Of a stretch of DNA of 64,000 nt, positions 9,845 through 42,772 are shown one piece after another (the first letter of the stretch is position 1; every line of letters begins with the position of its first letter). The stretch covers positions 1 through 64,000 of the forward strand of contig CAMJKD010000001.1 in assembly GCA_946406315.1 (NCBI GenBank), written 5' to 3'. The translations under genes were made by a program, and so were the position numbers. The notes beneath the pieces are model-generated. The model had not been told where the DNA came from and did no database searches. It saw only the letters and a program-made list of their open reading frames with translations. Origin of the DNA: an uncultured Candidatus Saccharibacteria bacterium (GTDB lineage: Bacteria > Patescibacteriota > Saccharimonadia > Saccharimonadales > Saccharimonadaceae).

Positions 9845-11467
9845 ATGTCGAAAGTTATTGAGATACCGGTGGGTAAAAGAACTCCCCTGTATCGTTTTTT
9901 TGAGATATTGCCGGGATTAATGAGCTACGGGATGATTATATTATTATTTGTTCTTTCGGCAGTGAATCCGGTTTTGGGTTCGTGTTATATTTTATTGATT
10001 GTAATCGTAAATCTTGTGAAAGCGATTGGGATTGCCTTTCGAATGGTACAGGGTTACAAAAAAATTAAAAAATGTACTAGAGTTAATTGGCGTAAACGTT
10101 TAGATGAATTGGAAAATGCGCAGGAAAGCTACGATAGGCTGGCTGGAACAAAAAGAGATTCGTATGAGTATGATCAGCATTTAAGGAATCTTTGCATGGT
10201 GGCGGCGGCAGAGGATGGCTATTTTCCGAAGCCAAGTGAGATTTATCATGCTGTAATTGTAACGATATATAACGAATCGTTGGATGTATTGGTGCCGACG
10301 ATGGAATGTATATTAAGAACAACTTACCCAAAGAAGCAGATGATAGTAGTGATTGCCTATGAGGAGCGAGGTGGGCCAGAAGCAGAAAAAGTCGCCAAAA
10401 CTCTGGAAAAGAATTATAAAAAGAAATTCGGTGCGTTTATTTTGGCAAAACATCCAGATGGCGTAAAAAACGAAGTAGTCGGTAAAGGCGCCAATATTAC
10501 TAATGGCGGTCGCGTGCTGAAGGGGTATGTTGAGTCGAAAAAGATTCGTTTTAGTAATGTAATAGTTACAACTTTGGATTGCGATAATAAGCCAGAGAAA
10601 TGCTACTTTGACAACGTTGCATATGAATATATCGTACATGAAGATCGCAAGAGGATGAGTTTTCAGCCAGTTTCGTTGTTCACGAATAATATTTGGGATG
10701 CGCCAGCCGTATCGCGCGTTGTGGCGTCGACGAATTCATTCTGGAACGTTATTTGTACGATGCGTCCGCATGTTTTGCGTAACTTTGCGTCACATTCGCA
10801 GTCTTTAGATGCTTTAGTAGAGATGGATTTTTGGAGCGTGCGTACGATTGTGGAAGATGGTCATCAATATTGGCGCAGCTTATTGTATTTTGACGGCGAT
10901 TATGAAGTATTGCCAATTCGCACGCCGATATATCAGGATGCAGTGCTGTCGGATACGCTATTTAAGACTCTGAAGGCGCAATGGGTTCAATTAAGGCGTT
11001 GGGACTATGGAGCTAGTGATGTAGCCTATGTTGGAACATATTTATTCTCGAAAAAACGTACGATTAAATGGAGTGTTATTTTTCCGAAGTTTATACGATT
11101 GCTGGACGGTCATGTAACTTTGGCGGCAATGGCGCCAATTATTGCTTTTGGTGGTTGGATACCGTTAATTTTTCATTATAATACGCGCGATTTATTGTCG
11201 CATAATTTGCCGATGGTAGTTAGTTACATTCAAACAGTGGCAGCGATTGGTTTGTTTGTTTCGTTGATTCTGTCATTAAAAATGCTGCCAGAACGTCCGG
11301 CGCGATATAAGAAGAGTAAAAAAATATGGATGGCAGTGCAGTGGGTGATAGCTCCAGTAATAGCGATTGTGTATTCGTCATTTTGCGCGTTTTACTCGCA
11401 GACAAGGTTGTTATTTGCGAGGTATATGGAAAAGTTTGACGTTACAGAAAAAGTAGTAAAAAAATAA
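9845..11467 (+). CDS. Membrane-bound family 2 glycosyltransferase
   Basis: A 540-residue protein with two N-terminal membrane segments (about 20-75), a GT-A catalytic domain and about four C-terminal membrane segments (from about 415). Catalytic features visible are the DCD metal-binding motif in TTLDCDNKP (about 243-250), an ED pair in VEDGHQYWR, and a QxxRW motif in QWVQLRRWD typical of processive GT2 enzymes such as cellulose or hyaluronan synthase relatives. It probably polymerises or exports a surface polysaccharide from nucleotide sugars; the product cannot be deduced. The start codon directly follows the previous stop. Confidence 0.85.
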   Translation: MSKVIEIPVGKRTPLYRFFEILPGLMSYGMIILLFVLSAVNPVLGSCYILLIVIVNLVKAIGIAFRMVQGYKKIKKCTRVNWRKRLDELENAQESYDRLAGTKRDSYEYDQHLRNLCMVAAAEDGYFPKPSEIYHAVIVTIYNESLDVLVPTMECILRTTYPKKQMIVVIAYEERGGPEAEKVAKTLEKNYKKKFGAFILAKHPDGVKNEVVGKGANITNGGRVLKGYVESKKIRFSNVIVTTLDCDNKPEKCYFDNVAYEYIVHEDRKRMSFQPVSLFTNNIWDAPAVSRVVASTNSFWNVICTMRPHVLRNFASHSQSLDALVEMDFWSVRTIVEDGHQYWRSLLYFDGDYEVLPIRTPIYQDAVLSDTLFKTLKAQWVQLRRWDYGASDVAYVGTYLFSKKRTIKWSVIFPKFIRLLDGHVTLAAMAPIIAFGGWIPLIFHYNTRDLLSHNLPMVVSYIQTVAAIGLFVSLILSLKMLPERPARYKKSKKIWMAVQWVIAPVIAIVYSSFCAFYSQTRLLFARYMEKFDVTEKVVKK

Positions 11468-11505: not shown

Positions 11506-11537
11506 ATTTAAGTAGTAATTAATTTGGAGGTAAAAGG

Positions 11538-11579
11538 ATGAAATCTGGGCCGTGATTTTTTGTTGAAAATAAACAGTAA
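11538..11579 (+). pseudogene. Vestigial start of a pilin-like gene (duplicated SD/start region)
   Basis: AGTAATTAATTTGGAGG followed by an ATG (11538) is repeated almost exactly at 11575-11598 before the pilin gene. The first start is followed by only four codons and then an in-frame TGA (11553-11555) and, seven codons later, TAA. It looks like the remains of a tandem pilin gene deleted between the repeats. Confidence 0.45.
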
Positions 11580-11595
11580 TTAATTGGAGGCAAAG

Positions 11596-12657
11596 ATGAA
11601 AAGAATAATTAGATGTGGGATGTTATTGGGGTTTTTGGCGACAAGTTTTTTAGCAACTTCGGTTAGTGCGACGAGCGCAAAGATTGCGGATAATTCAGAT
11701 AGTGCACAATGAATAAGAATTACGAGGTCAGTACAAGGTTTGGCAAATAATATAGTTAATAATGACTATACCTACACGATTACGCCAGATCCGAATAATC
11801 CGGCCATAGTTAAGGAGATGCCGGAAGAAATTGATTTGACATTAGCAGGCGTGCCGGATGACGGTGTTATTAGTGCTTTGGCGGATATTAATATTAGCAA
11901 TGTAGAATTTCCGGCACTGGGTGATTATAAATTTATTATTCGAGAATCAGCTTCTTCGGATCAGATTAATTTTCCCGTTAATAACGAGCATGAATACTAT
12001 ATGTATGTAAGTGTGCGGAATAAGTTAGGCACAAACGGTAGACCAACAGGCGAATATATAGCGACTTTGTCGTCACAGGTGCGTGATCATGATACTGGCG
12101 ATAAGGTTGAGGCGACGTTTAATAATCATGCCCGACGTGGTCATATAACGATAAAAAATGAGGTGTCTGGTAATTTGGCGAATACCGAGGATTATTTTAA
12201 GTATAAGGTAGATATTATCGGTGCCATAAGTGGGGATGTATTTACGGTAGAGGGTCAAGATAGTTCGGTCAGTTATGGTGGCGAGACGATAACGCCAAAT
12301 TCGAAGATATTTGTCGGACAAGATAATTATATTTATTTGAAGCATGGACAGGAAGTCACGATTGGCAAGAACGGAAATGAGAATGAGTTACCATTTGGAA
12401 TAAAGTACGTCTTGACGGAGGTCGATGCGAACGGTTATGTGCAATATGTGGATGGAGTTGAAGGGAATGTCTCGCGAGAGAAAATAGTAATAGATGGCTC
12501 TACTGGTGAGGAAAATCGAGTTGAATTCTTGAATCATAAAGAGGGCAATATTTTAACTGGTGTTTTATTGACGATTTGGCCATACGCTTTGGCGCTAGGC
12601 ATCGTAGTTAGCCTAATAATCGCAAAGCTAATTAGCAAAAAGAAACAGAAAAACTAA
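11596..12657 (+). pseudogene. Pilin / isopeptide-domain surface protein, frame interrupted by one TGA
   Basis: From ATG 11596 (SD GGAGG) the frame encodes a clear signal peptide ending in SVSA, then meets one TGA at 11710-11712, and continues open to TAA 12657 (354 codons in all). The body has a Spy0128/FctA-type pilin domain (NNDYTYTITPDPNN, later YKFIIRES), then a second beta domain starting GHITIKNEVSGNL (DUF7601-like), and a C-terminal LTG motif with a hydrophobic stretch and KKKQKN tail. Such proteins are polymerised or anchored by class B sortases, one of which is encoded two genes on. No frameshift is present. Either a nonsense mutation or UGA read as an amino acid; the downstream 305 codons alone lack a secretion signal. 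Confidence 0.75.
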
Positions 12658-12658
12658 A

Positions 12659-12961
12659 ATGCTTAAAATCAAACAAAGAAGAGGGCGCGCTTGAGCGCGC
12701 CTATCCTTGAGGGTGTGTTTTGTGATGGCATATTTCTATCTTATGTTCGGTGTGTTGTTTGGGGTTAAAATAGGAAAAGGGAATAGTGATGGAAGTATAG
12801 TGATGTTTTGTAGAATATGCAGTAACTATGCTGCTGGTGACTTGTTAGTGATGCGAGACGGTGAATTAATGGAGTACGGTGATAATGATAATAACAAGAT
12901 GGTGGCGGGGAAAGTAATTGCGAGCTTAAGAATACGTGGTTTTTACTATGAGGATAATTAA
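12659..12961 (+). pseudogene. Signal peptidase I-like (SipW-type) remnant, frame interrupted by one TGA
   Basis: From ATG 12659, one base after the pilin stop, the frame reads a basic start, a TGA at 12692-12694, a membrane segment (YFYLMFGVLFGVKIG) and a short SipW-like tail with SDGSIVMF, AAGDLLVMR, GDNDNN and VAGKVIASL, ending at TAA 12961. In intact enzymes the catalytic Ser (SGSSMEP) and Lys/His parts lie between these motifs; both are missing here, so the gene also seems internally deleted. The order pilin, signal peptidase, sortase is typical for Gram-positive-type pilus clusters. It overlaps the sortase start by 14 nt. Confidence 0.6.
12683..12702 (+). other. Perfect GC hairpin within the signal peptidase-like frame
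   Basis: GGCGCGC-TTGA-GCGCGCC forms a 7-bp stem with a 4-nt loop whose loop contains the in-frame TGA. No T-run follows, so it is not a plain terminator. Confidence 0.5.
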
Positions 12962-13649
12962 TAAAATATTGGACATTTCATTAATGATGGGAATAATACC
13001 GTTTTTGTGAATTGGAACTTATGCGTTAGTAGATGCGGTATTGGTGTCGCGGAGTGCGATGGTTGATGAAAAGATAGTGCAGCTTGCTGAGACGCAGAGC
13101 GATGATTTGTTTGCCGAAATGGATAGTGAGTATGTTATAGCATGGATAACAATAAATGATACGAATATTAATTATCCCGTCGTGCAGGGTGGCGATAATG
13201 GTTGGTTTTTAAATCGAAACTATAAAGGTATTTTTGCGACGGCAGGAAGTATATTTTTAGATTTCCGAAATGTAAAAGATTTTAGCGACAAATTTTCAGT
13301 GATTTATGGTCATAGGATGGGGAATGGTGAAATGTTTTCAGATATTCAGAAGTTCAAAAATGAGGAGTTTTTTAATTTGCACCAAAACGGTATTTTGAGA
13401 TTAAGGGAGCGATTATTGAATTTGGAAGTTGCAGCTTATGCGGAGATAAACGATGACGAATGAACGGTATATAACGTTGAAAAGAGCGCAAACGAGAATG
13501 CTAGTCAAGCTATTGGAAGAGTTTTAAATGCGGCTATTTGGAAAAGAAGAGAGCTAAAAGAAAATGGGCGTTTTTTGTTATTATCGACCTGCGATGGGGA
13601 TGTGAAGAATAAAAGGGATGTCTTGCTAGTAGCCATTTTAGACGGCTAG
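12948..13649 (+). pseudogene. Class B sortase, frame interrupted by two TGA codons
   Basis: One frame runs from ATG 12948 to TAG 13649 (234 codons) with TGA at 13008-13010 and 13461-13463 as the only interruptions. It encodes an N-terminal membrane segment, the SrtB-type region INYPVVQGGDNGWFLNRNY, catalytic His in VIYGHRMG, and, beyond the second TGA, catalytic Cys in LLLSTCDGD and Arg in NKRDVLL. The full His-Cys-Arg triad therefore survives only if the TGA codons are read through. Class B sortases join or anchor pilins such as the one encoded upstream. Reading only 13041-13463 would give a fragment with no nucleophile. Confidence 0.8.
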
Positions 13650-13906: not shown

Positions 13907-14521
13907 ATGAGCACTTACGGCAAAAACTTATCACTCAAAGCATATATAGATGGGAAGAAAGCTTCCATAGAGATACCATACGAGTCGCTATTTGAATTGT
14001 TTGAATTCAGGAAACAATACGAAGAATACGTTAAAGACACTTCTTCCGAAAATGCCGGCCATAAAACTGACGACATGGTCCGAGAATCCGCCGAATTGTT
14101 TATAAAACACGGCGTCTGTTCAACCGAATTGCTCCAACGACACTTTCACATTGGATATGGTCGAGCGGCCTCTATTATCGACGAATTGTCAGGCATGGGC
14201 ATTGTTGGCAATTCGGCCGGTGGCAACAAGGGTCGCGAGCTACTAATCAACTCAATAGATGAGCTCGATGATTATACGAAAGCTTCTTCCAAATTTATCG
14301 ATCCTGAAACCGACGACATAGTCCGAGAATCCGCAAAATTATTTATTAAGCACGGCGTCTGTTCGACTGGGTTACTTCAGCGCCACTTTCATATCGGATA
14401 TGGTCGAGCGGCCTCTATTATTGATGAGCTTGAAAATCTCGGCGTTATAACTCCACCCATAGGAAATAAACGTTTCGTAAAGATTAAAACCGAAGAAGAT
14501 CTTGACGATATATTTAAATAA
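13907..14521 (+). CDS. Tandem FtsK-gamma-like winged-helix DNA-binding protein
   Basis: A 204-residue protein with two near-identical copies of the FtsK gamma winged helix (PF09397), about 55-105 and 130-185; each reads IKHGVCST-x-LLQRHFHIGYGRAASIIDEL. In FtsK this domain recognises short polar DNA motifs (KOPS), but here there is no translocase motor. The N-terminal 50 residues (SLKAYIDGKKASIEIPYESL) are unknown. It is the first gene of an operon with a GIY-YIG nuclease 15 nt downstream, so a role in guiding that nuclease to DNA is plausible but inferred. The internal repeat shows recent duplication within the gene. Confidence 0.8.
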   Translation: MSTYGKNLSLKAYIDGKKASIEIPYESLFELFEFRKQYEEYVKDTSSENAGHKTDDMVRESAELFIKHGVCSTELLQRHFHIGYGRAASIIDELSGMGIVGNSAGGNKGRELLINSIDELDDYTKASSKFIDPETDDIVRESAKLFIKHGVCSTGLLQRHFHIGYGRAASIIDELENLGVITPPIGNKRFVKIKTEEDLDDIFK

Positions 14522-14536
14522 TTAAGCGAGGCACAA

Positions 14537-15403
14537 ATGGCGAAAAACGAGACTATCAAATTAAACGATCTGCTCCAATTAACGAGGGAAGAAATCGACA
14601 AAACAAAAGTCCGTTTCATGGTGCCCAGTAGTGGTATTGATTTCAACCCGAACACCGACGCCGAAGATCCAGCCAAGCAAGACAAAATTAACCTTACCGA
14701 TCTTGTATATAACCGCGAAAAATTCATGTCGTTCACGGATGGCGTTATCGCAATAGGTTTCATCCGAATCCGCGACGATTATTGGCTCATGACCGGAATT
14801 GTTAAAGTTAAAAAGGATAATGGCTTGGCCAAGCCAGCGACGGCCGAATACTTAACTAAGAAATTTAACTTTAGATTAGTCATAAAATTCCATAAGAACT
14901 TCCAAAACGGTATCGTTCTAGCCCAAAATGTCATCGACGAACTTGAGGTCATTGAAATCTGGAATCCGGATAAGACTCTAAACGATAAAACTTTCCCAGG
15001 CTACAAGAATGTATCTGTAAGTTACTCCGAATTAGAGAAAAAACTTGAATCCTCAGAATGGCGCACGGCCTTAAGCTGTCGCAAAGGCGTTTACCTAATT
15101 ACAGACCAAACGACTGGAAAGCTCTACGTTGGCTCTGCCTATGGAACAAATGGTATTCTGGGCCGCTGGGAAACCTACATAAAGAGCGGCTACGATAAGA
15201 ACGAAGTTGAAAACGGCAAATACCCAAACAAAAAGCTACAAGAGCTAGTAAATGAAAAGGGGCTCTCGTATATTCAAGAGAATTTCCAATATTCTATCCT
15301 CGAAACTTTCACTGATGATGTTTCCGACGAGTATATAATAGGCAGAGAATCGTGGTGGAAAGAAGCACTACGGAGCAGACAATTCGGATATAATGCCAAC
15401 TAA
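14537..15403 (+). CDS. GIY-YIG nuclease family protein with N-terminal domain
   Basis: A 288-residue protein. The C-terminal third is a GIY-YIG domain: GVYLI (about 194-198), KLYVGSA (about 207-213), the catalytic Arg in GRWETYI (about 219), and a late Glu in IGRESWWKEAL (about 270). The N-terminal about 180 residues (with WLMTGIVKV and a FPGYKNVSVSYSELEKKL linker) match the general layout of GIY-YIG proteins of unknown role found next to mobile or defence genes. It would cut or nick DNA in a metal-dependent way. It follows the FtsK-gamma protein gene with SD GCGAGG. Confidence 0.8.
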   Translation: MAKNETIKLNDLLQLTREEIDKTKVRFMVPSSGIDFNPNTDAEDPAKQDKINLTDLVYNREKFMSFTDGVIAIGFIRIRDDYWLMTGIVKVKKDNGLAKPATAEYLTKKFNFRLVIKFHKNFQNGIVLAQNVIDELEVIEIWNPDKTLNDKTFPGYKNVSVSYSELEKKLESSEWRTALSCRKGVYLITDQTTGKLYVGSAYGTNGILGRWETYIKSGYDKNEVENGKYPNKKLQELVNEKGLSYIQENFQYSILETFTDDVSDEYIIGRESWWKEALRSRQFGYNAN

Positions 15404-15678: not shown

Positions 15679-18600
15679 GTGTCTGGTGGAATATTCTCCA
15701 GAAAACGCTTGACGCAGGTAGATAGGATTCGGAAAAATATTCGTATTTTTGCAGTGCTCATTTTGGGCGCTATTTTAAGTTGTATTGTTTTTAAGTCCTT
15801 TGCTGAAATTATCGATGATGTCCGTGTTGATGTCGATGCAGATCTTACCTATTACTTAAACGTCAAAGAAGACGGTATTGATGCTACTGGCATAGAATCT
15901 AGTGATGCCCAAATTGCCAATGTACTTGGTGGTAGGGTAAATGTGACAGACAAAATCCCAGAAGGTCTAGTATTCCAAGGTTTCGTTACTACTTCTGATG
16001 GTACAATCGGTGCCGTATCCCGTGCAGATAACTCTATCCAATGTCCAGGTAAAGTCATTGACGATACTAATGAAGAAACTGTAGATACTGGTACTTGGAA
16101 TAATGACCATACAGAATACTACTACCATGGTCTTCACTACAATGCTAATACTCGTACCGTTAGCTTTTCCGCTGAGAAGATTAAAGCTGGCTGCCAATTA
16201 ACAGTAGGCATTATTACTAAAACCCCAGCCACCATAGATGATCCAAATACTACTCCCATTGAAACTCGTCGAGACTTCTACAACACTGCTTTTGCTGCCG
16301 AACGAGGACTAACTGCTACTTCCAATACTGTTCATGCCTTTATTGGTGATTCTAGCGCTACGCTATATGACGTTACTTATGCATATGAAGGAGATATCCC
16401 AGCTGGTGCACCAACTACTCCTAGTGAAGAATCTTACGCCCAAGATTCCACAGTACCAGTTAATGCTAACCCAATACTTGAAGGCTATACTTTCTCTGGC
16501 TGGACTACGACTGATGCTACCGTAACGGACGGAACTTTCCCAATGCCAAATCGCAATGTCCGTCTAGTAGGTCTTTGGACGAAAAACCCAGAAGGTACTA
16601 AATATAACGTTACCTATGTCATTAATGGCGAAAAACCAGCAGACTTTATGCCACCAGTTGGGAAGCAATATGAAGCTGGCGTTAGTGTGCCATTAGATTC
16701 TACCGAAGCTAATGCTAATATAGATGGCTATAGATTCTCTGGTTGGAGCACTACTGATGCTACATTATCTGAAACTGGCTTTACGATGCCAAGTCAAGAC
16801 GTAACAATTGTTGGTAGCTTTGAAAGAATCTCATATAAAGTCTGCTATGCCTTTGAGGGCGCTATTATCCCAGCAGGTGCAAGCGTTCCACCATGCGAAG
16901 ATCATTATCCAGGTGATACGGTTACAACAGCCGCTAATCCAGTAGCAGCAGGTTATGACTTCCTAGGCTGGTATAAGAATGCAACCTTCACCATGCCAGA
17001 AGAAAACGTTACTATCTATGGTGAATGGGCAGAAACCCTTGGTACTTTCACGCCACAGATAAGCAAAAGTCTAGTTGATGCTCAGACAGAATACATCTAC
17101 GGCGAAACCGTAAAGTTCAAGATTACCGTCCGCAACCCAGAATCCTTTGCTATTAAAGATGTCTATCTACAAGAAGAATTAGACGGCGCGGTCTTTACGG
17201 CGCCAAATGACAATTCCTACACAGTCAAGACTAATACAATCGCAGTAATTCCAAGCATCCCAGCAGATAGCAGCGTCGATGTCTATGCCGAATACAAAGT
17301 AACAGAGAATAGAACTCAAACGCTTACCAATATCGTAGAGCTAACTGGCGCTCTAGCAGATAACCATACCTTAGATACTAGCCAAGAATACAAAGCAACC
17401 ATAGATTTCAATACTGTTCCGGAACCAGTACCACTTACGGGCATTATCTTTAATGCTTTACCATATATTGGTTTAATTGTATTAGGTGTCAGTATTATCT
17501 TTATCGTAGCCATTTCATCACGCAAGTTTGACCTATTAGGAAAGCTAACGGCAGTTTCGCGAAGAATTAATCCGCATAAAATCTTCAAATACTCGCTCCC
17601 ATGCTTCGCCGTTATTGGCATTCTAATTGGTGTTACATTGGTTAAGAATGTTGCAGCAGGGCATTATACCGAAGTTATTAAGTCTGTAGAATTAACATCG
17701 CAACACACTAACTATTCCAACAATGAACCAGGTTCTTGGAATGTAACGAAGAGTGCAAAATGGATTGAACAGGGCAAGGCAAGAATTACCTTTGATGTAG
17801 ATACAATAGCCAAAGTAGCAGAAGGCACGCATACGGACATTGTTATGGTACTAGATAACTCCGGCTCTATGAGTGGAGATAAAATAGCTCAAGTCAAGCA
17901 TGATGCAACCGAACTCATTGAAAGTGTCTTATCTGATTCTAATAACCGTATTGGTTTAGTGAGCTTTAACTCTGATGCAGCTAAACTCAGTAATCTCACT
18001 TCAGATAAAACTACGCTCATAGATTTAGTAAATGGATTAGACACCCCAGGCTGCACTAACTATTATGATGGCTTTCTGAAAGCCGAAGAAATACTTGAAG
18101 GATACACTAAACAGGAAGATCGTGAGTTGATTCTATTATTCCTCACTGACGGTTATCCAAATGAACAAACCCCAAATGAAATCCCTGAATACCAAGCCTT
18201 AAAAGCTAAGTATCCATATATGACCATTAATGGTATTCAGTATGAAATGGGCGATGAAGTTCTAGACCCTATTAAACAAATCTCAGATAACCAGTTTATT
18301 GCTAACATAAATTCCCTAGGCAATGTACTCTTTGAAGCCTCAATTTCACCATATACCTATGAGAACTTTACTCTGACCGATTACATTAATAACGAATATT
18401 GGGATGTAGATAGTGTAGATGAGATTGAGGCCTCCATTGGCGAAGCAAACCTCACCCATGAAGGCACAGTACCAGTTGTGACTTGGGTAATGAATGAAGT
18501 ATTAAGATCTGGTCGTTCAGCTAGGTTAACGATAGACGTTACATTAAAGAACGCAGGAGAAATAGAAGATGAAACATTACTGCCAACTAACGACCATGAA

Positions 18601-20883
18601 ATTATACAGAGTCAGTTGCCAGAGACTACGAACGAAAACATAAGTAGTGACCTTACGCCAGTATTGAAGTCTAGCTACAAGGTTAGCTATGAAGCGAATT
18701 TACCGAATGATTGTGGCTTGTATGGAGGCACACTGCCGGTAGAGCAGACCTATTCGCCGCTTTCAATAGTACAAAAGTCTAGCAATGTACTGACTTGCGA
18801 CGGCTATAACTTTGCTGGTTGGGTAGTAGCCGAAGGTGATCCAAAAAATATTAATGATGACTACTTTAAGATTCTAGAGGATGACGTAGTACTTCGCGCC
18901 ATTTGGTCTAAAGTTTCCATTTCCAAGAGCATGGATGGAGAAGTAAAGGAAGAAGTAACGGCGGTCCTAAATACTGGACGGAACATAAATGTGGCGCTGA
19001 AAAAACTTTCTGGTCAAACCAGTGCGAACTATTCGACTAATAACACCACCATTACAGCCGTAAAGCCTGCTTCTACTATGTCTTCCGTACAACAAGCGAA
19101 TGCTTCTACTATCTCTGCATCTAATTCTCCCGTACCAATCTATGCCTGGTTTGATGATACCGATGGCACTATCTATATTTATTTCGAGGCAGATAAGATT
19201 AAGGCGGGCGCTGACCTGCGTAGATTATTCTATGGCTTCAAGAGCCTGAACGATATCTCCGCGCTTTCTGCTTGGGATACTTCGAGTGTTACTAATATGA
19301 GCGAAATGTTCTACAACGCCTCCAGCCTTACAAATATAGACGCTCTTACCGATTGGGATACTTCAAAAGTAACTGATATGGGCGGTATGTTCAGTGGCAC
19401 TAAAATTACGAATATAGACGCGCTTTCTGGTTGGGATACTTCAAAAGTTACTACTATGCAGTCTATGTTCTCTAGTGCCTACAGCCTTGCAAATATAGAT
19501 GGCGCAACCGATTGGGATACTTCAAAAGTTACTACTATGCAGTCTATGTTCTCTAGTGCCTACAGCCTTGCAAATATAGATGGCGCAACCGGTTGGGATA
19601 CTTCAAAGGTTACTACTATGAGCTCTATGTTCAGTGGCACCTCTAGTCTCACAGATATAGACGCTCTTACCGATTGGAATACTTCGAGTGTGACTAATAT
19701 GAGCTCTATGTTCTATAACGCAAAAGCCCTGACTAATATAGACGCTCTTACCGATTGGAATACTTCGAGAGTGACTAATATGAGCTCTATGTTCAGTGGC
19801 ACCTCTAGTCTCACGAGTATTGACGGCGCCTCTAACTGGGATACTTCGAAAGTTACTACTATGAGCTATATGTTCGATGGCGCCTCTAGCCTTGCCAATA
19901 TAGACGGCGCTTCTAACTGGGATACTTCGAGTGTTACTAATATGGGCTCTATGTTCGGTGGCACTAAAATTAGCAATATAGATGCGCTTTCCGACTGGAA
20001 TACTTCGAAAGTTACTACTATGGAGTCTATGTTCTCTGGCGCCTCTAGTTTGACTAATATAGACGGCGCATCCGACTGGAATACTTCAAAAGTTACTACT
20101 ATGTATCAGATGTTCCAAAACGCATCTAGTCTTACGAACATCGATGGCGCGTCTAACTGGGATACTTCGAAAGTTACTACTATGAGCTATATGTTCCGCA
20201 GCGCCTCCAGCCTTACAGACATTGATGGTGCATCCGGTTGGGATACTTCAAAGGTTACTAGTATGTACTATATGTTCAATAGCGCAAAAACACTAACCAA
20301 TATAGACGGCGCATCTGACTGGGATACTTCGAGTGTTACTACTATGAACGCTATGTTCCGCAGCGCCTCCAGCCTTACAAATATAGATGGTGCATCCGGT
20401 TGGGATACTTCTGGCGTTACTAATATGAGCTATATGTTCTATGAAACTAAAATTGCCAATATAGATGGCGCATCCGACTGGGATACTTCAAGTGTTACTA
20501 ATATGAGCTATATGTTCTATGGTGCCTCTAGCCTTACAGATATTGATGGCGCATCTAACTGGAATACTTCGAAAGTTACTGATATGAGCTTTATGTTCTG
20601 GGTTGCCTCCAGCCTTACAAACATAGATGGCGCATCCGACTGGGATACTTCAAGTGTTACTAATATGAGCTACATGTTCCGTAACAACTCTAGCCTTACG
20701 AATATCGACGGCGCATCGGGTTGGGATACTTCTAAAGTTGCTAATACATCCAATATGTTCAATGGCTGCAGTAGTATTACCTCATTAAATCCGATCTTTA
20801 ATTGGGATACGTCAAGCCTTACGAATAAAAGCGGTATGTTTAGCGGTATTCCAGCATCCGTAACGCGCCCAGGATGGTATTAG
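15679..20883 (+). CDS. vWA / BspA-repeat surface protein, copy 2 (complete)
   Basis: A 1,734-residue protein from GTG 15679. Order of parts: signal-anchor helix (about 20-42), an ectodomain segment, three InlB-like units (about 230-460), a DUF11-like domain (about 465-575), LTG then a membrane helix (about 585-610), a basic loop, a second membrane helix (about 638-660), a von Willebrand A domain (MIDAS DNSGS about 725; CTNYYDG; FLTDG) to about 900, another InlB-like unit (about 998-1075) and 20 BspA-type units (from about 1193), ending in RPGWY. Two long ectodomains on one membrane hairpin is the likely topology. Adhesion to a host bacterium or tissue is inferred. The first 665 nt are nearly identical to copy 3. 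Confidence 0.9.
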   Translation: MSGGIFSRKRLTQVDRIRKNIRIFAVLILGAILSCIVFKSFAEIIDDVRVDVDADLTYYLNVKEDGIDATGIESSDAQIANVLGGRVNVTDKIPEGLVFQGFVTTSDGTIGAVSRADNSIQCPGKVIDDTNEETVDTGTWNNDHTEYYYHGLHYNANTRTVSFSAEKIKAGCQLTVGIITKTPATIDDPNTTPIETRRDFYNTAFAAERGLTATSNTVHAFIGDSSATLYDVTYAYEGDIPAGAPTTPSEESYAQDSTVPVNANPILEGYTFSGWTTTDATVTDGTFPMPNRNVRLVGLWTKNPEGTKYNVTYVINGEKPADFMPPVGKQYEAGVSVPLDSTEANANIDGYRFSGWSTTDATLSETGFTMPSQDVTIVGSFERISYKVCYAFEGAIIPAGASVPPCEDHYPGDTVTTAANPVAAGYDFLGWYKNATFTMPEENVTIYGEWAETLGTFTPQISKSLVDAQTEYIYGETVKFKITVRNPESFAIKDVYLQEELDGAVFTAPNDNSYTVKTNTIAVIPSIPADSSVDVYAEYKVTENRTQTLTNIVELTGALADNHTLDTSQEYKATIDFNTVPEPVPLTGIIFNALPYIGLIVLGVSIIFIVAISSRKFDLLGKLTAVSRRINPHKIFKYSLPCFAVIGILIGVTLVKNVAAGHYTEVIKSVELTSQHTNYSNNEPGSWNVTKSAKWIEQGKARITFDVDTIAKVAEGTHTDIVMVLDNSGSMSGDKIAQVKHDATELIESVLSDSNNRIGLVSFNSDAAKLSNLTSDKTTLIDLVNGLDTPGCTNYYDGFLKAEEILEGYTKQEDRELILLFLTDGYPNEQTPNEIPEYQALKAKYPYMTINGIQYEMGDEVLDPIKQISDNQFIANINSLGNVLFEASISPYTYENFTLTDYINNEYWDVDSVDEIEASIGEANLTHEGTVPVVTWVMNEVLRSGRSARLTIDVTLKNAGEIEDETLLPTNDHEIIQSQLPETTNENISSDLTPVLKSSYKVSYEANLPNDCGLYGGTLPVEQTYSPLSIVQKSSNVLTCDGYNFAGWVVAEGDPKNINDDYFKILEDDVVLRAIWSKVSISKSMDGEVKEEVTAVLNTGRNINVALKKLSGQTSANYSTNNTTITAVKPASTMSSVQQANASTISASNSPVPIYAWFDDTDGTIYIYFEADKIKAGADLRRLFYGFKSLNDISALSAWDTSSVTNMSEMFYNASSLTNIDALTDWDTSKVTDMGGMFSGTKITNIDALSGWDTSKVTTMQSMFSSAYSLANIDGATDWDTSKVTTMQSMFSSAYSLANIDGATGWDTSKVTTMSSMFSGTSSLTDIDALTDWNTSSVTNMSSMFYNAKALTNIDALTDWNTSRVTNMSSMFSGTSSLTSIDGASNWDTSKVTTMSYMFDGASSLANIDGASNWDTSSVTNMGSMFGGTKISNIDALSDWNTSKVTTMESMFSGASSLTNIDGASDWNTSKVTTMYQMFQNASSLTNIDGASNWDTSKVTTMSYMFRSASSLTDIDGASGWDTSKVTSMYYMFNSAKTLTNIDGASDWDTSSVTTMNAMFRSASSLTNIDGASGWDTSGVTNMSYMFYETKIANIDGASDWDTSSVTNMSYMFYGASSLTDIDGASNWNTSKVTDMSFMFWVASSLTNIDGASDWDTSSVTNMSYMFRNNSSLTNIDGASGWDTSKVANTSNMFNGCSSITSLNPIFNWDTSSLTNKSGMFSGIPASVTRPGWY
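19258..20840 (+). repeat. 20 tandem BspA-type units in copy 2
   Basis: Same 26-27-residue unit as in copy 1; a few units are 26 residues (TKITNIDALSG type). Adjacent units at about 19440-19590 are almost identical in DNA, showing recent expansion. Confidence 0.85.
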
Positions 20884-40816: not shown

Positions 40817-42340
40817 TTAGTTGAATATTTGCGGGCGGTATAAGAGAGCTTCGGCGATATGGCTATCGGTAATTTTAGGTGCCGCTTCGAGGTCGGCGAT
40901 GGTTTGCGCAACTTTGATAGTTTTGAAATAGGCACGAGCTGATAGTCGGTAGTGCATAGCGGCTTCGGCGAGCAGCTTTTGGGCTGTCTGATTGAGTTGG
41001 CAATATTTGGTAGTTTCATAGGAGGTGAGGCGAGAATTAAACTTTGTATTGTCGCGAAAACGGTAGAGTTGGCGATCTATTGCTGTGCGGATGAGTTGTT
41101 GTGCGTTTTCGTGTTCATAAAATGGCTCCTGAGTGCTTTTAGCGTAAAAGATGGATTTTGGGTCGCGCTGAAGTTCGAAAACGATATCTATGCGGTCCAG
41201 AAGCGGTCCGGATAGTTTTTGGCGATATCGCTCGATTGCGCCGATGCTGCAAGTGCAGGTGCGCTCTTTGTCGCGATAATAGCCGCATGGACAAGGGTTC
41301 ATAGTGGCAATAAGTATAAAATCGGCAGGATAGCGGACGTGATGACCGAGGCGACTTAGTTCGATGCTATGATTTTCGAGCGGCTGTCGTAGGGCTTCGA
41401 GGCGGTCGCGGGGAAATTCTGGTAGCTCGTCAAGGTGAAGGATGCCAAGATGGGCAAGGGATATCTCGCCGGGGCTAAGATTGACGCCTCCGCCGATAAA
41501 GGTGCGCAAACTGGTGCTGTGATGTGGGGCGCGATAGGGGCGCTCATGAATAATGTTAGTACAAAGAGTGTTGAGCGAGTGAAGCTTAGTGATAGCAATT
41601 TGTTCAGCGGAAGTAGGCGGCGGAAGAAGTGTGGGACTGATTTTGGCGAGCATAGTTTTGCCGGTACCGGGTGGTCCAGAGAGCAGTAGATTATGTCGAC
41701 CAGCAATGGCAATAATAAGTGCACGTTTGGCGGCGGTTTGGCCAAAAATGTCGTCTAAATAATAGCTCTTGCGCTTATCTGTTTGCGTATTTTTGACAGA
41801 AACAGGAGTAGGCTTGATAATGATTTTGCCTTTGAGAAAAAGCCAGAGTTCGCGTAAATTACGAACTGGAATAAGCTCGATGCCACGCGCGATTAAGATG
41901 GCTTGTTGTGCGTTGGCGGCTGGAATGAACAATTGTTTGATGCGATGAATTTTGGCGGTTTCGACAATATTAAGAATGCCTTTAATGGGCTTTATATCGC
42001 CATTTAACGATAATTCGCCAACAAACATACGATTTGCCAGGTCTATGGGTAAAAGTTGCTGAGAAAGGCTGAGAATGGCTAGTGCAATAGGTAAATCGAG
42101 GTGGGTACCATCTTTGCGTAATTCGGCTGGCGCCAGATTGATTATCACTTTATGTTTGGGGAAATCGAAAAGAGAATTACGGATAGCAGAACGGATACGG
42201 TCACGACTTTCGTCGATAATCTTGCTTGCCATACCGACGATATTAAAACAGGGGAGACCTTGAGTACTATCGCCTTCGACCGTTACAAGGCGACCATTGT
42301 AGCCGTATGGAATAGCAGAATAGACTTTTGATATTTTCAT
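40817..42340 (-). CDS. comM: YifB/ComM-family AAA+ ATPase
   Basis: A 507-residue Mg-chelatase-like ATPase. The N-terminal Lon-protease-like domain (VEGDSTQGLPCFNIVGMA, INLAPAELRKDGTHLDLPIAL) is followed by the AAA+ core with Walker A GPPGTGKTM (about 221-229), HLDELPEF as Walker B and NPCPCGYYRD with the Cys cluster, then a C-terminal Mg-chelatase domain. ComM is a hexameric helicase that drives branch migration of incoming DNA during natural transformation. Its presence suggests DNA uptake ability, common in CPR. Confidence 0.93.
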   Translation of the reverse strand: MKISKVYSAIPYGYNGRLVTVEGDSTQGLPCFNIVGMASKIIDESRDRIRSAIRNSLFDFPKHKVIINLAPAELRKDGTHLDLPIALAILSLSQQLLPIDLANRMFVGELSLNGDIKPIKGILNIVETAKIHRIKQLFIPAANAQQAILIARGIELIPVRNLRELWLFLKGKIIIKPTPVSVKNTQTDKRKSYYLDDIFGQTAAKRALIIAIAGRHNLLLSGPPGTGKTMLAKISPTLLPPPTSAEQIAITKLHSLNTLCTNIIHERPYRAPHHSTSLRTFIGGGVNLSPGEISLAHLGILHLDELPEFPRDRLEALRQPLENHSIELSRLGHHVRYPADFILIATMNPCPCGYYRDKERTCTCSIGAIERYRQKLSGPLLDRIDIVFELQRDPKSIFYAKSTQEPFYEHENAQQLIRTAIDRQLYRFRDNTKFNSRLTSYETTKYCQLNQTAQKLLAEAAMHYRLSARAYFKTIKVAQTIADLEAAPKITDSHIAEALLYRPQIFN

Positions 42341-42388
42341 AGACGAAGTATACGGGGGTAGATACTTGATTTTAAAGCGTGAGTGCGA

Positions 42389-42394
42389 TAAAAT
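42389..42394 (+). promoter_or_regulatory. -10 hexamer of ssrA
   Basis: TAAAAT 11 nt before the mature 5' end. Confidence 0.5.
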
Positions 42395-42405
42395 ATTAAC
42401 TAGTC

Positions 42406-42772
42406 GGGGCTGACAAAGCTTAGACGGATTATTAACAGTATGTATGCGGATCGATTAACACCGTAAGTGTTTTCATAAATGCAGACAAAACTGCTAGTAA
42501 GCATGTAGCTTATATGCCTGCTTACGCTATGGCCTAAGATATAACTAGGTCTGTTATCCTTGGTGAGATACCATAACTTCGGATAATATCATACACATGG
42601 TAATAAGGTTGACCTTCTGACAGAGATCAGCACGAAAAATCAGTCATGACATTGCTTGAGTTTTGTTTATTCCAGCTCTAGTAAGTTTGTCGAGATGAAA
42701 GAATGAACTATGTCCGTAGATTACATACCAGAGGTAGTTCGGACCCGGAGGCAGTATCCGGCAGCTCCACCA
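42406..42772 (+). ncRNA. ssrA: Transfer-messenger RNA
   Basis: The 5' end GGGGCTGA and 3' end CAGCTCCACCA form the alanyl acceptor stem, and the T arm has GTTCGGACCC. The tag frame from 42481 reads ADKTASKHVAYMPAYAMA then TAA (42535-42537). It rescues stalled ribosomes and marks their products for proteolysis. The tag ends in AMA rather than the common ALAA. Confidence 0.95.

Follow-up and report, generated by a model that had tools for sequence, protein, structure and literature searches.

The window, by which we mean the whole stretch of 64,000 nucleotides that was analysed, stems from an assembly of 26 contigs (1.07 Mb, 99.5% complete) and carries on its forward strand a short operon for a pilin-like protein, a small membrane protein and a class B sortase. 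Directly upstream lies a glycosyltransferase-like gene (9845..11467, +), which was used as a control, followed by a leader (11526..11555, +) that consists of the Shine-Dalgarno sequence GGAGG, the micro-ORF ATG AAA TCT GGG CCG TGA (MKSGP-stop; 11538-11555, +, with the TGA at 11553-11555) and a T-run 3' of the micro-ORF. The pilin-like protein (11596..12657, +) has a signal peptide, a DUF7601 domain (Pfam, 3e-10) and a C-terminal membrane anchor, and its codon 39 is an in-frame TGA (11710..11712, +). The second gene (12659..12961, +) encodes a small membrane protein of ~100 aa, which is putatively SipW-like, yields no significant match to Pfam and has an in-frame TGA at codon 12 (12692..12694, +). 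The sortase gene (12948..13649, +; Pfam Sortase, 1.7e-10) reaches 150.3 bits against NCBIfam TIGR03064, slightly under the cut-off of 153.75, and contains two in-frame TGAs, at codon 21 within the membrane anchor (13008..13010, +) and at codon 172 (13461..13463, +). Thus, the five TGAs are located where the first-pass annotation had placed them (11553, 11710, 12692, 13008 and 13461), all in frame, and pilin, small protein and sortase are free of interior TAA, TAG and frameshifts. The same annotation had taken a missing SipW catalytic part as a sign of decay. However, the small protein has a length of ~100 aa in all seven of the seven nearest relatives, so that the short version represents the normal form of the family. 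Further downstream, the window encodes a stand-alone protein with two FtsK-gamma domains (13907-14521) and a GIY-YIG-like protein that scores under the cut-off (14537-15403).

Of the 45 genus genomes, 35 (counting the own genome) gave matches to the operon in a DNA search, and the order glycosyltransferase, pilin, small protein, sortase was found in stretches from the matched genomes. Relatives of the glycosyltransferase were found in 18 named records, all of them Candidatus Saccharibacteria MAGs from several studies, which, where a source is given, originate mostly from ruminant guts. In many species the operon occupies a single chromosomal site, between the glycosyltransferase gene and tRNA-Ala(CGC). 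For the comparison of the TGA positions, 40 pilin orthologues and 41 sortase loci from within the genus were aligned, whereby genome G019 contributes two sortase rows and locus L040 contains Ns. Pilin codon 39 is TGA in 7 of the 7 nearest orthologues, which share ~50% protein identity; overall, a TGA is present at 8 of the 40 loci, always in this one alignment column, which in farther species holds S, T, Q, N and others, mostly S or T. At the position of the small-protein TGA, Trp is found in six of seven relatives and Gly in one. The column of sortase codon 21 shows L/L/L/A/C/F/G in the seven nearest relatives, the column of codon 172 has TGA in six rows and Trp in three, and the invariant Trp of the sortase V-x-A-W motif appears as 36 W and 5 TGA among the 41 rows. 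Overall, 14 of the 41 sortase rows carry one to three TGAs each (three in G027), at differing sites. Among the matches listed, 19 interior TGAs were counted in sortases of 16 genomes, and in the sortase matches listed from 295 genomes of the family every interior stop is a TGA. Where they could be placed, all TGA-bearing sortase rows belong to copies of the window operon, and no TGA was detected among the matches listed for sortase paralogues elsewhere in the genomes. Likewise, an interior TGA was seen in none of 31 copies of the adjoining glycosyltransferase gene. With synonymous sites near saturation, pN was smaller than pS in each of the 28 pairs for either flank of the pilin TGA and in 27 of 28, 28 of 28 and 20 of 21 pairs for the sortase segments around the TGAs. 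These alignments point to stops that are conserved while the coding sequence on either side of them is under purifying selection, the combination by which programmed stop-codon readthrough is recognised. Across species of the genus, these genes show either identical TGAs or further ones at different Trp codons, a recurrence that goes beyond chance.

In order to find out which further genes contain interior TGAs, we surveyed stretches from four genomes (846 kb of the own genome, 400 kb of G017, 700 kb of G039 and 100 kb of G004). In the first genome-wide readthrough surveys, shadow frames of the antisense strand and neighbouring genes prevailed, and their results do not enter the counts. Later surveys, which took intact proteins as queries or applied stricter filters, were judged by eye. 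Most survey matches were shadows of opposite-strand genes or gene junctions, and the interior TGAs judged to be real were located in comM, comFC and comEC. At query Trp positions the codon was TGG in 8417 cases, TGA in 22, TAG in one and another in 859, shadow frames included. According to tallies summed by hand, comFC contains 46 TGAs, one to three per gene, in 35 of the 38 genus copies among the matches listed, in which only G006, G014 and G026 are without one; comEC contains 50 TGAs, one to five per gene, in 22 of 45 genus genomes; dprA has 24 in 20 of 41 genomes; and comM has one each in 16 of 37. The comM gene of the window, a YifB family Mg chelatase-like AAA ATPase gene (40817..42340, -; TIGR00368 with 494 bits at a cut-off of 362), is intact and has TGG (41843-41845) at a Trp position that is TGA in seven of the ten copies aligned. 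As regards the homology of ComEC, ComFC, ComM and DprA to competence proteins, TIGR00360 and TIGR00368 score above their cut-offs, TIGR00732 does so in 39 of 45 genomes, and TIGR00201 stays under its cut-off with 68.8 bits. TGAs in the competence genes are nearly absent from other genera: among the matches listed from outside the genus, comFC shows one row with a TGA and a TAG and one with a TAA, and comEC shows no TGA but some rows with TAA or TAG. Within the genus, no TAA or TAG occurs in the rows of sortase, comFC, comM and dprA among the matches listed. The comEC matches of the genus include seven; the five that were read, all except those of G029 and G018, lie in the last columns and constitute natural ends. 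As a control, prfB and prfA were searched in 45 genomes and no TGA was found, whereby four prfA-like rows had one TAG or TAA. The first-pass annotation had considered a UGA recoding that is limited to the pilin cluster. The part of this suggestion in which UGA is recoded while remaining a stop agrees with our data, but its restriction to the cluster does not, given the TGAs in comFC, comEC, comM and dprA. In addition, the signal peptide of a secreted protein of ~500 aa, lamin-tail-like by eye and without NCBIfam match, is interrupted by a TGA in the own genome (G000:C9:17532-19049), G039 (C1) and G017 (C1), and a helicase IV-like gene has a mid-gene TGA common to the own genome and G039. ORFs that we take, from signature motifs, to be RecA, RadA, TopA, FtsK and PilB/PilT-like are open, and the PilT-like ORFs terminate at TGA in three species. 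The dprA genes of the own genome (G000:C7:42151-42390 and 42383-42751) and of G031 (G031:C1:50628-50067) appear, judged from coordinates only, as two pieces in frames that differ by +1, with the change near the same profile position (92-96) in both.

To deduce which residue is read at TGA, we tallied 47 well-covered TGA columns with 113 TGA cells from comEC, comFC, comM, sortase and pilin; the alignments represent 30 of 45 comEC, 30 of 38 comFC (among the matches listed) and 10 of 37 comM sequences. Compared with the background, Trp is enriched 16.8-fold in these columns, and the values for Cys and Gly are 1.8-fold and 0.7-fold. Among the conserved columns of comEC, comFC, comM and sortase, TGA occurs in four of five Trp columns versus one of 537 others. 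Individual examples are the comFC column in DD-x-W-TTGSS with 24 W and 6 TGA, a comEC Trp column with 25 W, 1 F and 4 TGA, and a comM Trp column with 3 W and 7 TGA. Many TGA columns, the early ones especially, show little or no W in relatives. From these alignments it is very probable that UGA is decoded as Trp in comEC, comFC, comM, dprA and the pilin/small protein/sortase set. A reading as Gly (code 25) was rejected, with G at 0.7 of the background versus 16.8 for W. Thus, of the two residues that had been named for these sites, Trp is retained and Gly is dropped.

A second group of TGAs is situated close to the gene starts. In comFC, an early TGA lies at codon 41-68 in 27 of 30 sequences, and all 30 sequences read have a TGA somewhere. 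The early site is mostly codon 41, 42 or 50, depending on the lineage, whereby the codon-42 form is that of the window's clade, and in relatives the respective columns hold charged or variable residues, not Trp. When placed on a tree built from the RF2 of 30 genomes, 11 of which are without a comFC label, the labels for the TGA site need 12 changes compared to a mean of 16.6 after shuffling. The comFC of G019 groups with another clade, which might be due to contamination. For comEC, an early TGA is present in 26 of 30 sequences (figure summed by hand) at alignment columns 66-105, taken as codons 3 to ~42 with seven TGAs at codon 3, whereby the starts were set by alignment and no start with a Shine-Dalgarno sequence was found in 29 of 30. 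These early comEC TGAs, too, mostly occupy non-W columns and shift between lineages. The start region of comFC (G000:C8 18287 (-) and 29 relatives) shows hardly any variation (GTTGTGAAAAATAC), and a potential micro-ORF, [ATG/TTG/GTG]-TTG-TGA, overlaps with it.

The early TGAs bear on the explanation that competes best with a regulated decoding, namely an unregulated leakiness of UGA, in which basal readthrough by tRNA-Trp(CCA) would allow TGG-to-TGA drift in genes that the cell can dispense with and expresses weakly, com genes among them. That the TGAs are often at Trp codons, and that bacterial UGA stops are leaky according to the portion of PMC7918605 drawn on here, would both be in line with it. 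However, the early TGAs fall mostly into non-Trp columns, occur about once per comFC per genome and shift their sites by lineage; since they are hard to derive from drift at Trp codons, they are the main reason for proposing a gate. Moreover, with up to five TGAs per comEC a readthrough of a few percent at each would leave almost no product, and yet the frame is still open. Overall, we regard leakiness as the cause of the pattern as rather unlikely.

The TGA codon itself is in normal use as a stop, as the first-pass annotation had noted: 179 of 1132 ORFs of 150 or more codons end in TGA in the stretches from the own genome and G039. RF2 matches without frameshift were obtained in 45 of 45 genomes, in 42 of them above the family cut-off, and the SPF and GGQ motifs, which we take to be diagnostic of RF2, are present in six of six sequences read. 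The own genome has 44 tRNA genes with one tRNA-Trp (CCA). The anticodon CCA was confirmed in 30 of 30 tRNA-Trp loci tested; the anticodon stem, inspected by eye, has 5 bp, and the tRNA is identical or nearly identical in most genomes, TGA-bearing or not. Positions G24 and A9, at which mutations of tRNA-Trp have been linked with UGA readthrough in the passages of PMC13092985 drawn on here, look wild-type. A second tRNA-Trp copy of G039 (C21, 99%) lies outside the sequences read, and a tRNA-Trp match in G001 (G001:C4:17947-18036) comprises 90 bases instead of 76 at 84% identity, possibly due to an insertion. A genome-wide code 4 was discarded on account of the persisting use of UGA as stop, the CCA anticodon of tRNA-Trp and the retained RF2. 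RNAalifold analysis downstream of the TGAs gave z values from -1.7 to 0.9 in five sets and -3.15 in the comFC_41 set, where E was only -2.4, and a seventh set was without z; no convincing conserved RNA fold was detected in these sets. Since tRNA-Trp and RF2 look ordinary and a convincing RNA fold was not found, the decoding would more likely depend on a state that acts in trans and is probably conditional than on an element in cis.

A competing possibility is a dedicated suppressor encoded by the genus, be it a tRNA that has a UCA anticodon or is altered in another way, or a protein factor, that would read UGA as Trp. Several UGAs per gene would demand efficient decoding, which a suppressor could provide. 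However, a tRNA with anticodon UCA, for which the first-pass annotation had proposed to search, was not found among the 44 own tRNAs, and tRNA-Trp has the CCA anticodon throughout the 30 loci and, by eye, a 5-bp anticodon stem. This negative is not watertight, given that the own list lacks tRNA-Val(UAC) too, which may point to gaps in the assembly. Altogether, a suppressor appears improbable. The own genome further contains a tRNA-like gene (L105, G000:C6:73122-73193) that ARAGORN reports as unknown with the four-base anticodon ggaa and whose arm, by eye, has a 4-bp stem and an 8-nt loop. Separately, we tried the motif [AG]CTN[AG]TGCTT as a common upstream element specific to the TGA genes. 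It occurs 57 times in the own stretches (846 kb), 29 times intergenically, and is found also upstream of ftsK-like and radA-like genes, so that it was rejected as specific and is likely a general promoter element of the genus. It is often located upstream of leaderless-looking starts, and several large VWA/DUF285-type genes (C1:15416, C1:27939, C9:31303; in the window 15679-20883), which share the nearly identical N-terminus SGGIFSRKRLTQVDRI, sit behind such a promoter-like element.

The remaining explanations are far less probable. Very young pseudogenes, which had been offered as one option, would explain why adjacent genes of the window contain more than one stop, but this is contradicted by TGAs that are common to species with near-saturated synonymous sites and by pN below pS; nor do the relatives display the assorted stops and frameshifts that would mark decay, but only TGA in unshifted frames. 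We thus consider this very improbable. That the genes came from a donor that recodes UGA (code 4 or 25), or that the TGAs are base errors, is less probable still: other Patescibacteria do recode UGA to Gly, as stated in the part of PMC10746230 consulted, but the residue here is Trp rather than Gly, selected genes only are concerned, and the same TGAs are present in MAGs from several studies. The earlier proposal of such an import is unsupported, because the operon has a fixed chromosomal site next to tRNA-Ala across many species and the neighbouring genes use the standard code. Selenocysteine insertion, which an in-frame UGA would suggest, is the least probable of all, as the own matches to the tRNA-Sec model that were compared are long-armed tRNA-Ser(UGA) and tRNA-Leu genes, Cys reaches only 1.8-fold against 16.8-fold for Trp, and no convincing stem-loop follows the sites.

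In the leader of the pilin gene, a strong Shine-Dalgarno sequence with a micro-ORF that begins with ATG and spans one to six codons was identified at 29 of the 40 pilin loci, with the Shine-Dalgarno sequence 44-83 nt upstream of pilin, and the micro-ORF always ends in TGA. A stricter form of this pattern occurs once in the own genome. The last bases are [AG]TGA with one exception (CCCTGA), which could indicate a start-stop overlap. The frame downstream of the micro-ORF TGA is not conserved, and this TGA is excluded from the readthrough sites counted.

Taking the comparative data together, we consider it probable that UGA has a dual meaning in this genus, in that it serves as an ordinary stop and would yet be read as Trp, probably conditionally, in a DNA-uptake and pilus set, with the early UGA as a gate. 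The ordinary tRNA-Trp(CCA) would read UGA via near-cognate pairing, whereby this decoding would be strong only in some physiological state, such as low RF2 or a modified or abundant tRNA-Trp. The early UGA of nearly every comFC and most comEC would then constitute a translational gate, and full-length DNA-uptake proteins and the sortase pilus would appear only in the permissive state. Provided that UGA is read as Trp, conditional gating of competence and pilus seems reasonably likely. More tentatively, and with somewhat more doubt than trust, we propose that a conditional code switch governs natural competence, such that ComEC, ComFC, ComM, DprA and the sortase pilus would be produced in full length only then; as part of this, the early UGAs may be kept by selection and shift between lineages like regulatory sites. 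The UGA-ended micro-ORF upstream of pilin may belong to the same sensing. The TGA set is not universal: comEC is without TGA in G008, G035 and G016, the pilin TGA is limited to 8 of 40 loci and the own comM has TGG, so that the pathway is possible without a gate.

The assignment of the set to DNA uptake rests on homology, and the link of the pilin-sortase operon to competence is putative. Wang et al. (2023) describe ComEC, DprA and ComFC as the com core of Saccharibacteria and report that loss of comEC is viable but abolishes transformation and that type IV pili are essential (PMC10633639, in the part available to us). The TGA set contains exactly this core, and the PilB/PilT-like genes are open. 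If the proposal is true, what a stop codon means would decide on the expression of a cellular gene set, with the same codon as stop and as Trp, which offers a testable account of how epibionts possibly hold competence off until a signal arrives. In practical terms, comEC, comFC, dprA and the pilus genes of this genus are split or dropped by standard annotation, and competence would consequently be recorded as lost where it is retained. Among the open-access papers listed, we found no report of UGA readthrough in Saccharibacteria, in sortase or pilin genes or in competence/transformation genes.

The proposed dual use of UGA shares features with several known systems, which are compared here as far as the excerpts of the cited sources go. 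With code 4 and with tRNA-Trp carrying a 4-bp anticodon stem (PMC13092985) it has in common that UGA means Trp, but here the reading is not genome-wide, RF2 is kept and the anticodon stem has 5 bp. In alternatively coded phages, in-frame stops are likewise concentrated in a functional subset of genes, the phage late genes, and are thought to delay expression until the decoding changes (PMC10746230). In contrast, the genes here are chromosomal genes of a cellular genus in which UGA is still a working stop, and neither a suppressor tRNA nor an extra release factor was found. E. coli and B. subtilis also read UGA leakily as Trp, which is probably the same decoding event, and prfB mutations raise this readthrough to 19-54% in one reporter (PMC7918605); that leakiness is low-level, whereas here the codon is fixed and conserved throughout the genus within a coherent gene set. 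Finally, Belinky et al. (2021) found low dN/dS around prokaryotic in-frame stops, which they read as expression regulation, and most of these stops are short-lived (PMC7918605). The stops described here differ from them in that they persist between well-diverged species, consist exclusively of TGA and are gathered in a single pathway.
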